Source of the DNA: Solirubrobacterales bacterium
GTDB taxonomy: Bacteria; Actinomycetota; Thermoleophilia; Solirubrobacterales; 70-9
Direction: 5' to 3'
Assembly (NCBI GenBank): GCA_020438355.1
Contig: JAGQUT010000001.1
Span: forward strand, 1-64,000
Length of the DNA: 64,000 nucleotides
Part shown: positions 54,416-57,930 of the stretch, one piece after another
How positions within the stretch are numbered: the stretch's first letter is position 1
How the letters are laid out: each line of letters begins with the position of its first letter
Notes under the pieces: model-generated
Seen by the model: the letters and a program-made list of their open reading frames with translations, nothing else
Told to the model about the DNA's origin: nothing
Database searches by the model: none
Position numbers and translations under genes: made by a program

Positions 54416-55888
54416 TCAACTGTCGAAGCCGAGGCCTAGCCGATCGAGAGTATTGAGCCACAGCCCCCGTCGGCCGTCGTTACGGTCGGCGGCAGCTATC
54501 CGGTTGCGAGTGAACTGGACAACTCCGTAGCGGATTGGCTCCGGGGGGAAGGGGAAAGGTTTCTCGGTCGTGTAGCGGAGATTGGTGACCTCGTTTTCGA
54601 CACCGTCCAGGATGTCGAGAGCCAGGTCGCCCGAGAACCGGCTGGCACCGACTCCGAGTCCGGTGTGGCCGACTGCCCAGCCGACTCTCCCTTCAAGGGT
54701 CGTTCCGTAGAAGGCGAAGAAGCGCGAACAGGTGTCGATCGCGCCGCCCCAACGGTGCGTGAAGCGAATCCCCTCGAGTTGCGGGAAGGCGGCCAGAAAC
54801 CGCTGGGCGAGGCCGGCGAAGCTGCGGTCGCGCTGATAGAGAGAGTCCTCGACCCGGCTTCCGAAGTGGTAGATCGCGTCGTAGCCGCCCCAGAGCAGCC
54901 GGCCGCCGGGTTTCTCGTCTGTCGCCGCGTCGGGTCCACCGTCAATTGGCCGGTAGTAGTGGAACCGGTTTGAACTGTCGGACAGTCCCTGCTGGTTTCT
55001 CCAGCCGAGCGAATCCCATTGGGCGCGGCTGAGAGGTTCGGTGACCAGTACGTAGTCGAATACCGGAATGACCCGGTGCCTGATCTGCCTGACCGGAACC
55101 TTGAAGGCCGAGGTCGCGAGAAGGACCTTCGCGGCCTTTACCGAACCGGCCGTGGTGCGAAGCTCCACACCGGTGCCGGACTTTGAGAATGCCTCCATCG
55201 GGGTGTTCTCGTGGATCCTCACCCCAAGTCGCACGGCATAGGCCGCCAGCCCGTCGCAGAGCCTCACGGGGTCGACCGTCCACTCTCCGGTCTTCTGCCA
55301 GAGGCCGCCACGGTAAAGGGGCGAGTTCACCTGGGCTCGCATCTCGTCACGGTCGAGCAACTCGGCCTCGTGGCCGTACTGATTCAGCTCTTCGACTCCG
55401 CCTCGCAGGTCATCGAACAGGGCGTCGGTCACGGCGACCTCGATTGCCCCGGGCTTCCGCAGGTCGCAGTCGATCGACTGTTCCTCGATCACCCGGCCGA
55501 TCTGCTCCAGGTTCTCGAGCCCAAGCTTCTCCAGCAGCGGCACCTCATCGGGGAACCGGGCCAGTCCGTTGCCCAGGCCATGAACCAGAGAGGAAGACAT
55601 GAAGCCGCCGTTTCGTCCGCTGGCACCGATCGCGAGCGTCTCCCGTTCGATCAGCAGGACTTCCCGGTCGGGGCTGCGCTCCTTCGCTCGTACTGCGGCC
55701 CAGAGTCCCGTCAGGCCTCCTCCCACCACCACCAGATCGGCTTCCGCCTCCCCCTCGAGTGGCGGGTGCGCTTCGGGTCTGTGGCCGCTCAGCCAGAAGG
55801 GTCGGGGCTCCGCATCCGCATAGGTCCGGCGGATCGATTCGTCCGGTTCAGATTCGGGCCATGCGGGGTTGCTTCCTTGACGCGCGAT
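54416..55888 (-). CDS. FAD-dependent amine/amino-acid oxidase (DAO type), probable AUC start
   Basis: A 490-residue DAO-type flavoprotein if started at ATC 55,888. The FAD-binding motif DLVVVGGGLTGLWAA follows an N-terminal segment (SIRRTYADAEPRPFWLSGH) of the kind seen in actinobacterial homologues, and the C-terminal half has GGYDAIYHFGSR, HRWGGAIDTCSRFFAFYGT (in part) and GHTGLGVGASRFSGDL. The only ATG/GTG/TTG starts in frame are at 55,732 and later, and would cut into the FAD motif. TACAGT ends exactly 6 nt before the ATC. The likely substrate is an amine or amino acid (PuuB/glycine oxidase relatives). Confidence 0.8.
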   Translation of the reverse strand: MARQGSNPAWPESEPDESIRRTYADAEPRPFWLSGHRPEAHPPLEGEAEADLVVVGGGLTGLWAAVRAKERSPDREVLLIERETLAIGASGRNGGFMSSSLVHGLGNGLARFPDEVPLLEKLGLENLEQIGRVIEEQSIDCDLRKPGAIEVAVTDALFDDLRGGVEELNQYGHEAELLDRDEMRAQVNSPLYRGGLWQKTGEWTVDPVRLCDGLAAYAVRLGVRIHENTPMEAFSKSGTGVELRTTAGSVKAAKVLLATSAFKVPVRQIRHRVIPVFDYVLVTEPLSRAQWDSLGWRNQQGLSDSSNRFHYYRPIDGGPDAATDEKPGGRLLWGGYDAIYHFGSRVEDSLYQRDRSFAGLAQRFLAAFPQLEGIRFTHRWGGAIDTCSRFFAFYGTTLEGRVGWAVGHTGLGVGASRFSGDLALDILDGVENEVTNLRYTTEKPFPFPPEPIRYGVVQFTRNRIAAADRNDGRRGLWLNTLDRLGLGFDS

Positions 55889-55950
55889 GGCCGGACTGTA
55901 GCCGACCCAGTCGGTATCTTGGCCCTGCGGACCATCGGGCCATTGACTAG

Positions 55951-55974: not shown

Positions 55975-56020
55975 GTACACCGACCTCTCCGGGGCAAGCT
56001 TGGTTTTCAGACCAAAGAAC

Positions 56021-56611
56021 TTGAATGAGTTATCCGATCTCGACGATGAGTCCCTTTTCTCGTACCTGGTTGCGTCCCGTGACGCCGGTGATCGCCGGGC
56101 CATGTCAGAGGCGGTCTACGCTCTTGTCCAGGCCCGGCTCCCGATGGTCGAAGCGATGGTCGCCCGCAGCACGCCCAAACATGCCCGGGATGACCTCGTC
56201 GAAGACATCCTCACCGATGCCGTTGTCTCCCTTTCGGCTTCGTTTACCGGCGGGCACCAGGGTGAATTCGTCAATTTCATCAAGACGATTGCAAGCCGTC
56301 GGATCGCCGACTACACCGATAAACAGAAGCGGCGGGTCAAGACCGAACCGCTCGAACCCGCCGGCGAGGATGACTGGGTGCCCGAGCCCGAGGGCGGCAC
56401 TAACGACCCCGCAGCCTCCGCCGCCATCAAAGATGCTGTCGAACGGGTACTCGACAGCAAGACAGAAGATCAACGGAAAGTGATCATCATGCGACTGGCC
56501 GGGATACCCTCAAAGAAGGTAGTCGAGGAAATCGAAGGTCAGAGCGTGGCGAACGTCGATCAGATCTTTTCCCGGTTTCGCAAGGACTTGAAGAAGGAAC
56601 TGGACAAGTAG
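56021..56611 (+). CDS. Sigma-70 family (ECF-like) RNA polymerase sigma factor
   Basis: A 196-residue sigma factor. Region 2 (about 8-105) starts SLFSYLVASRDAGDRRAMSE and has TDAVVSLSASFTGGHQGEFVNFIKTIASRRIADYTDKQKRR (in part), the core-binding and -10 recognition helices. Region 4 (about 130-195) is VERVLDSKTEDQRKVIIMRLAGIPSKKVVEEI followed by the recognition helix ANVDQIFSRFRKDLKKE. The spacing has an acidic linker (GEDDWVPEPEGG). The TTG start gives the usual short tail before region 2; earlier TTGs at 55,943 and 56,000 are alternatives. The stop touches the next gene's ATG. No standard zinc anti-sigma gene follows; instead there is an HTH-like protein and an ImmA-type protease. Confidence 0.85.
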   Translation: MNELSDLDDESLFSYLVASRDAGDRRAMSEAVYALVQARLPMVEAMVARSTPKHARDDLVEDILTDAVVSLSASFTGGHQGEFVNFIKTIASRRIADYTDKQKRRVKTEPLEPAGEDDWVPEPEGGTNDPAASAAIKDAVERVLDSKTEDQRKVIIMRLAGIPSKKVVEEIEGQSVANVDQIFSRFRKDLKKELDK

Positions 56612-57265
56612 ATGAACGGTCCCGACGAGATCACCAAGGCATTCGACGAGTACGTCGCCGCATTCAGGGCTGGACACGGCGACCCGAACCCATATCTGGA
56701 GAGATTCTCCGGCGATGATCGCCGCGAACTGGAGGTTCTGGTTGATGCGTTCCTCGAAACGGGCCCTCGTGCCGAAGTCGACCTGTCGGGAGTCCCAGAC
56801 CCGCAGATCGAAGCGATTGCCGAACGAGTGGCCGAAAGAGTCGGGGCATCTTCCGGTGGCCTCTCTGCCCTCGTGCTTGGCTTGCGCAAGCAATTAGCAC
56901 TGAAGAGTTCAGACGTCGTCGCAGAACTGGCAGCCGCCTACAAGGCCACCCCAGCCGAGCGCGAAAAGATCGATGCCTACTACCACGACCTCGAGTGGGG
57001 CACGCTGCCGGCCTCGGGGATCTCCGACAGCCTGCTCGGCTCCCTGGCCAGGGTTCTGAGGACCAAGGCCGAAAGGCTGCGCGAGGCGAGCCGCGAGCTA
57101 GGACCTCCCAGGTCCCGGAGCACCGGTCTGCTCTTCGCCCGTATGGCAGACGATTCCGAGTTTGAACTGGAAGGCCTCGCTGTAAACAATCTCAAGGCAT
57201 CTTCGGGAAAGGCCCGGCGAGCCGATCCACCCGACCGCATCGACGAACTCTTCACTGGCGGTTGA
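56612..57265 (+). CDS. Helical protein with XRE-like region, putative sigma/protease partner
   Basis: A 217-residue protein starting on the base after the sigma factor stop. Residues 1-50 are helical with DPNPYLERFSGDDRRELEVLVDAFL. Residues about 86-150 look like a degenerate XRE helix-turn-helix: VLGLRKQLALKSSDVVAEL, EKIDAYYHDLEWGTLP and ISDSLLGSLARVL, the same order of helices as Cro/CI-type domains next to ImmA-type proteases. The tail (160-217) is charged and likely flexible, with NNLKASSGKARR. It may bind the sigma factor, DNA or both, and be cut by the protease; all of that is inference from position. Confidence 0.65.
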   Translation: MNGPDEITKAFDEYVAAFRAGHGDPNPYLERFSGDDRRELEVLVDAFLETGPRAEVDLSGVPDPQIEAIAERVAERVGASSGGLSALVLGLRKQLALKSSDVVAELAAAYKATPAEREKIDAYYHDLEWGTLPASGISDSLLGSLARVLRTKAERLREASRELGPPRSRSTGLLFARMADDSEFELEGLAVNNLKASSGKARRADPPDRIDELFTGG

Positions 57266-57290
57266 GTTCCGGGGGTGCCTCCGGCGGGAG

Positions 57291-57296
57291 TAAGAT
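57291..57296 (+). promoter_or_regulatory. -10 hexamer of a leaderless promoter
   Basis: TAAGAT ends 7 nt before the GTG of the ImmA/IrrE-type gene, so the protease may also be made independently of the sigma factor transcript. Confidence 0.5.
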
Positions 57297-57303
57297 CGCC
57301 GGC

Positions 57304-57930
57304 GTGTCCATGGAAGGAACGGGAGCCAGGAAGATCACCAGCCTTGATCCGGGAGATGCCGCCGAGATCGAGCAGGATGTAGATGAGATCCTCGGCTCGA
57401 TCCCTGACCATGTCTGGAACGGGCGCAGCTTGCCGGTCCCCGTCGAGGAAATCGCCCGCGAGGTCTACGGACTCCGCATCTGCGTCGTCAGCCATGACCA
57501 AATGAGGGAAGTGGTCGCTGACAGCCTTTGTGACGGAACGGTGTCGGGTCTTCTGCTGACCGGCATCGGCGAGATATGGATCAACGAAGACGAACTCCAG
57601 GATCCTCAATGGGGCGCCCAGCGCGGGCGGTTTACCGCAGGCCACGAGTTGGGTCACTTCGTGATGCATCAGAAGTCCCGGCCTGCGATTTACTGCCGAA
57701 GTTCCGAGGCGGGAGAGAGTCTTGACACCGAGCCGACCCCGCGCACCGTGCCGGAGGTGGAAGCCAATACCTTTTCGGCCGCGCTGCTCTTGCCAGCCCC
57801 GTTGATCAGGGCGGAACTCGACGTGCAGGGACAAAGCGACGAGGAAAGCATCAGCATCCTGATGGCCCGTTTCGGTGCATCGCGGAAAGCCGTGTCCCGG
57901 CGGGTCAGAACGCTAAGGGAGATCACCTGA
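57304..57930 (+). CDS. ImmA/IrrE family metallopeptidase
   Basis: A 208-residue zinc protease of the ImmA/IrrE (DUF955) family. The zinc motif HELGH is at 114-118, preceded by RGRFTAG, and the third ligand region is EVEANTFSAALLLP near 151-164. The C-terminal part (DEESISILMARFGASRKAVSRRVRTL) is the usual helical end with a HTH-like look. ImmA cleaves the phage repressor ImmR and IrrE cleaves DdrO after stress; a similar job on the product of the preceding gene is inferred. GTG start with an internal ATG two codons later. Confidence 0.92.
   Translation: MSMEGTGARKITSLDPGDAAEIEQDVDEILGSIPDHVWNGRSLPVPVEEIAREVYGLRICVVSHDQMREVVADSLCDGTVSGLLLTGIGEIWINEDELQDPQWGAQRGRFTAGHELGHFVMHQKSRPAIYCRSSEAGESLDTEPTPRTVPEVEANTFSAALLLPAPLIRAELDVQGQSDEESISILMARFGASRKAVSRRVRTLREIT

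Follow-up and report, generated by a model that had tools for sequence, protein, structure and literature searches.

Where does translation begin in a gene whose reading frame holds no ATG, GTG or TTG where its N-terminus should lie? The question is raised by an oxidoreductase gene on the minus strand of a 64,000-nucleotide (nt) stretch of DNA from a Solirubrobacterales bacterium (GenBank assembly GCA_020438355.1, contig JAGQUT010000001.1, positions 1 to 64,000), the whole of which we refer to as the window. The genome that contains it (G000) comprises 2.62 Mb in 133 contigs. Our best reading, to which we assign a probability of roughly 0.85, is that the gene is expressed from a leaderless mRNA translated, probably weakly, from a 5'-terminal AUC. 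Comparison of sequences suggests that the corresponding ATC is an authentic, conserved start codon other than ATG, GTG or TTG. The features concerned are as follows.

54416..55888, minus strand: DAO-family flavin adenine dinucleotide (FAD)-dependent oxidoreductase, 490 residues if read from the ATC; coordinates include the stop codon.
55886..55888, minus strand: ATC, the proposed start codon, aligned with that of the ATC-bearing congeners; other orthologues have ATG, GTG or TTG in this region.
55889..55894, minus strand: 6-nt spacer that separates the ATC from the -10-like hexamer.
55895..55900, minus strand: -10-like hexamer TACAGT; TAnnnT is present in 12/12 ATC-bearing congeners.
55730..55732, minus strand: first in-frame GTG, rejected as the start.

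The predicted protein matched the Pfam family DAO (PF01266) with an E-value of 7.6e-56 and 190.6 bits, above the gathering score of 27.9. All 20 of its NCBIfam matches fell under their cut-offs, and its matches in the PDB were distant, the best being dimethylglycine dehydrogenase (E 1.8e-8). The minus-strand frame is uninterrupted from 55951 down to the stop codon at 54416-54418. A first-pass annotation of the window had stated that this frame stays open upstream of a GTG at 55,732 lying within the FAD-binding strand, that the 52 codons upstream of it include no ATG, GTG or TTG, and that TACAGT ends exactly 6 nt before an ATC at 55,888. Inspection of the frame and a recount bore out all three statements: the GTG at 55732 is the earliest ATG, GTG or TTG of the frame, no such codon occurs in frame in the 52 codons between the ATC and this GTG, and hexamer and ATC occupy 55895-55900 and 55886-55888. 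The GTG at 55730..55732 was ruled out as the start, as it sits inside the FAD-binding strand behind a conserved N-terminal segment. When the window gene was compared with those of 11 congeners, nonsynonymous divergence (dN) was 0.12-0.30 as against a synonymous divergence (dS) of 0.93-1.21, and in the N-terminal 55 columns dN was below dS in 9 of the 11 pairs, that is, in all pairs with a computable dS. In an AlphaFold model (16 sequences; mean predicted local distance difference test score 78.6), residues 11-40 were ordered with scores of 80-85, and residues 1-10 scored 48. The predicted order of residues 11-40 agrees with a start of the protein near the ATC rather than at the GTG at 55732.

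We found close orthologues of the oxidoreductase in 17 of the 18 genomes of the genus, the window's own included; in G004, which is 74% complete, no close orthologue was found. An in-frame TAnnnT-N6-ATC is present in 12 of these 17 (G000, G001, G002, G003, G006, G007, G008, G009, G010, G012, G013 and G015), and the 11 ATC-bearing orthologues other than the window's share 63-79% protein identity with it. The recurrence of ATC at the same place supports translation from AUC, as the first-pass annotation had proposed, and the comparison of orthologue starts that it had suggested gave a consistent picture: orthologues begin at the site of the ATC, with ATG, GTG or TTG in those that lack it, and none begins near residue 53. 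The hexamer reads TACAGT in nine of the 12 and TAGGGT, TAAAGT or TAGAGT in one each; the latter three forms, in G003, G012 and G015, contain an in-frame stop codon, so that translation cannot come from upstream. In the ungapped alignment of the 12 sequences, the A, T and C of the ATC are each conserved in 12/12, as against 5-8 of 12 for the five preceding bases. Among 97 columns with fourfold third bases, 5 are invariant. The residue after the ATC is Ala in nine, Ser in two and Cys in one, which is mostly what the sequence context of an initiator codon would predict. GGAG, GAGG and AGGA were absent from the 20 nt upstream of all 12 sites. Furthermore, the gene upstream of the oxidoreductase is divergent in the window, which excludes translational coupling there. 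Ten of the 12 congeners, all but G002 and G015, have at least 39 codons after the ATC without an in-frame ATG, GTG or TTG, and in G006 the interval from the ATC to the FAD strand is free of ATG in every frame and of GTG, TTG and CTG in frame. The five remaining members of the genus have a canonical start linked to TAnnnT: ATG (G017) and GTG (G016) at 6 nt, ATG at 7 nt (G005 and G014) and ATG at 9 nt (G011).

At the level of the order, 232 genomes were searched, of which 66 carried an oxidoreductase orthologue at E <=1e-100, one locus each. ATG, GTG or TTG occurs 33-62 codons before the FAD strand in 53 of the 66. The 13 orthologues without a canonical codon there all have a near-cognate codon linked to TAnnnT, which is ATC in 12 and CTG in one (G124). 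Ten of the 12 linked ATC codons belong to the genus and two to G080 and G084 of another family, and the spacing is 6 nt throughout except for 7 nt in G084; counting G002 and G015, a TAnnnT-linked ATC is found in 14 of the 66 orthologues. As a control within the genes of the 66 orthologues, 1 of 2118 near-cognates (ATC, ATT, ATA or CTG) had TAnnnT 6-7 nt upstream. Set against the 13/13 start regions that lack a canonical codon, this frequency indicates that the linkage is more than chance; single-base shuffles put the chance of a linked near-cognate in the start region at 0.002-0.02 per sequence. No GGAG, GAGG or AGGA occurs in the 20 nt upstream of the G080 site. In a quick tree built from 35 sequences out of the 66, G080 and G084 form a supported pair remote from the genus, whose two deep branches (support 90 and 88) both include ATC; a minimum of five changes between ATC and other codons is needed when G015 is scored as other. 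At the G124 locus (L187), TAGGAT-N6-CTG stands at the start place and ATG, GTG and TTG are lacking.

The arrangement is not confined to the oxidoreductase. A scan of G001 raised a second gene with TACGAT-N6-ATC, which encodes about 270 residues and is thioredoxin-like by eye, with no Pfam match. Its copy in the genome of the window is located as follows.

C45:194399-195211, minus strand: second gene, G000 copy (L298), outside the window and about 139 kb from the oxidoreductase.

Copies of the second gene were read in 49 of 50 genomes of the family (50 copies), G019 giving a distant match only. Counted 11 codons back from an aligned anchor without permitting gaps, the start column reads GTG in 23 copies, ATC in 17, ATG in 6 and TTG in 4, and no other codon occurs among the 50. 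Within the genus, 15 of 18 genomes have ATC (16 copies, each preceded by TAnnnT at 6-7 nt), and G005, G014 and G016 have GTG; in G005 and G014 the start linked to TAnnnT is a different GTG, four codons upstream. Outside the genus, 30 of the 31 genomes read have a canonical codon (GTG, ATG or TTG) in the start column. The ATC of the other one, G024, has GGAG upstream and no linked TAnnnT, and on these grounds may be of another kind. Every one of the 12 genomes whose oxidoreductase has ATC also has ATC in the second gene; the clade of G005, G014 and G016 is canonical in both genes, and of the two genes only the second has ATC in G011 and G017.

The first-pass annotation had called 6 nt the usual distance for leaderless genes, and the genome agrees with this: in 600,390 bases of G000, coding frames after TAnnnT peak at 6, 7 and 8 nt, with 34, 27 and 10 ATG frames and 11, 5 and 5 GTG frames, respectively, and spacings below 6 nt yield 0-3 ATG or GTG frames each. 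A separate scan of 538 gene calls found 70 ATG and 27 GTG codons 6-7 nt after TAnnnT. Starts of the leaderless type with ATG or GTG are common in the genome of the window, and ATC starts are rare. ATC 6-7 nt after TAnnnT showed no clear excess in the stretches scanned (G000, 600 kb; G001 and G080, 400 kb each). The scans for ATC starts were insensitive: the first missed both known genes in G000 and picked up just the second one in G001, a further one picked up neither, another recovered the second gene alone in both G000 and G001, and a scan with wider limits (800 kb of G001) recovered both. The seven linked ATC codons of G001 comprise the two genes described here, one that was rejected and four others; the rejected one, C11:244553, was discarded because homology continues upstream of its ATC. 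In G080, a TetR-like gene (L276:1567-2106; C1:361567) has TAGGCT-N5-ATC and no in-frame ATG, GTG or TTG shortly before or after it; three relatives of this gene have ATG near that place, and we regard it as a lead only.

Turning to the initiation machinery, an initiation factor 3 (IF3) domain is present in 17 of the 18 genomes of the genus, and infC has an apparent GTG start in the 16 readable of 17 loci. The idea of an altered IF3 was abandoned, as 16 aligned IF3 sequences from the genus look ordinary and match well over the core; four columns of this alignment set G005, G014 and G016 apart from the rest. Of 44 tRNA places typed in the genome, one has the anticodon GAT and three have CAT. Three G-C pairs in the anticodon arm are a hallmark of initiator tRNAs. 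In the four anticodon arms inspected, one CAT tRNA has the initiator G-C pairs and the GAT tRNA does not, and a special initiator tRNA that reads AUC was rejected accordingly.

In the mechanism that we propose, TACAGT would act as the promoter -10 element and place the 5' end of the mRNA at, or within 1-2 bases of, the A of the ATC, leaving no leader. The ribosome would bind this 5' end and initiate at the AUC, which the ordinary initiator tRNA with anticodon CAU would read with a mismatch at the third base. The product would begin fMet-Ala-Arg, and the formyl-Met would probably be removed before Ala or Ser. The AUC would have taken the place of an ancestral ATG, GTG or TTG and been retained in most species of the genus. 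Initiation of this kind would be weak and sensitive to IF3, and the low or adjustable enzyme dose that it may give could be the reason for the retention. That a regulatory purpose lies behind the retention of the AUC is a possibility to which we give somewhat less than even odds. More tentatively still, the genus may use AUC as a leaderless start in a small set of at least two genes under common control of initiation fidelity, through IF3 or the 70S ribosome.

Other explanations have to be weighed against this mechanism. Sequencing error or mutation of an ATG to ATC in this strain, both of which the first-pass annotation had also considered, would require a single base only, in a genome of 133 contigs; both are refuted by the same ATC in orthologues from 11 further species genomes of the genus and from two of another family and by its recurrence in the second gene, and their probability is negligible. 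It is highly improbable that another codon starts the protein, be it a downstream GTG or CTG or a start in another frame with a subsequent frameshift. CTG does occur in the N-terminal region of some orthologues, GTG and ATG follow the ATC in G002 and G015 after 9 and 2 codons, respectively, and 10 of the 12 congeners have an out-of-frame ATG 67-76 nt past the ATC, which is a product of conserved Tyr-Ala-Asp/Glu-Ala codons. However, G006 offers none of these codons before the FAD strand, the segment after the ATC is constrained at the protein level and ordered in the model, and orthologues elsewhere start before it. The ATC could also be the start codon of an mRNA with a leader but no Shine-Dalgarno sequence, transcribed from further upstream. 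The position of the transcription start is itself deduced here, and sigR, a gene known for its noncanonical start, has a leader with a AGGAGGTG site according to the part of PMC5472188 available to us. The hexamer stands exactly 6 nt upstream in 12/12, however, matching the ATG and GTG starts of the genome, and the missing GGAG, GAGG and AGGA motifs and the divergent upstream gene leave no sign of ribosome-binding motif or coupling; we consider a leadered mRNA improbable. Compatible with an AUC start, and unlikely without being far-fetched, is a scenario in which the ATC works but persists as a neutral relic, without regulatory purpose, in a gene that can do without good expression. The ATG or GTG found in 5 of 17 genus orthologues shows that the codon is exchangeable, but dN/dS is about 0.1-0.3 across the whole gene, and ATC is found in both deep lineages of the genus despite a dS of about 1 and a single base separating it from ATG.

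Several observations weigh against a leaderless AUC start. The invariance of the C carries little weight, given that 5 of the 8 other invariant Ile columns are likewise ATC in all 12 congeners and that ATC accounts for 199 of 227 Ile codons, a count that takes in the 12 start codons. The downstream GTG of G002 and ATG of G015 provide canonical codons in these two species, and outside the genus G084 combines a spacing of 7 nt with an AGGA abutting the hexamer. In G001, the codons linked at 6-7 nt among 727 gene calls in 800 kb include ATC 7 times, ACC 9, GCC 8 and CCG 7, as compared to 96 ATG and 35 GTG. Finally, in Mycobacterium smegmatis reporters, as described in the section of PMC4633059 that we could access, leaderless ATG and GTG work and no other codon does, ATC being the negative control, and the accessible portions of the review PMC9031893 and of PMC5622118 emphasise AUG. 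A leaderless AUC start would therefore be surprising.

Noncanonical starts as such are known. Excerpts of the respective papers name AUC among rare starts (PMC9094748), describe it as permitted in a gene set (PMC5397173), report low activity for a leadered ATC (PMC4633059) and, in the excerpt of PMC5622118, list start-codon switches with none to AUC. From the accessible part of PMC5472188, infC, which encodes IF3, starts with ATT in E. coli and with ATC in Streptomyces, and sigR of Streptomyces has a GTC start that is repressed by IF3, with GTC in 32 of 34 Streptomyces and GTT in two. The oxidoreductase resembles infC in having an AUN codon as its apparent real start, which IF3 may tune, but infC encodes a translation factor whereas here an oxidoreductase is encoded, apparently leaderless and without a Shine-Dalgarno motif. 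It resembles sigR as an actinobacterial gene with a conserved non-NTG start; sigR, however, has a strong AGGAGGTG site, in place of which we find a -10-like hexamer 6 nt before the start. With the leaderless ATG and GTG genes of actinobacteria, described for mycobacteria in the available part of PMC4633059, it shares an apparent lack of a leader and, by the spacing counted in G000, a start 6-7 nt past the -10 hexamer, but it departs from the mycobacterial ATG-or-GTG rule, with ATC in the window and 11 congeners. Among the papers listed by a literature search in which subscription journals were thinly covered, none dealt with a leaderless AUC start that is conserved. What appears to be new is the combination of a noncanonical start codon with an apparently leaderless message, a context in which it was thought not to work.

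The surroundings of the oxidoreductase in the window include the following features.

55915..55920, plus strand: TATCTT, conserved, CCAAGATACC on the minus strand; probable -10 element of the divergent gene.
56000..56611, plus strand: divergent neighbour, sigma-factor-like by eye, with no Pfam match; likely start TTG at 56000, from alignment by eye.
57262-57930, plus strand: peptidase of the ImmA/IrrE type (Peptidase_M78, PF06114); two genes that have no Pfam match precede it on the divergent strand.

The sequence TGTCAGA lies on the plus strand between TATCTT and the TTG at 56000 and is present in 13 of 17 genus loci. A start of the divergent neighbour at a CTG within this motif (NTG-TCA-GA) was rejected, since a long frame follows the motif in only 4 of those 13 loci, and the TTG at 56000 is, from the alignment, the more likely start.

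For annotation, a search for starts restricted to ATG, GTG and TTG would shorten the oxidoreductase, as the first such codon comes 52 codons late and inside the FAD-binding strand. If true, the leaderless use of AUC would break the reported rule, which admits AUG and, in mycobacteria, also GUG as the first codon of a leaderless message. Two genes that keep AUC at their apparent 5' ends over much divergence would constitute a natural test of how the 5'-terminal codon is recognised.
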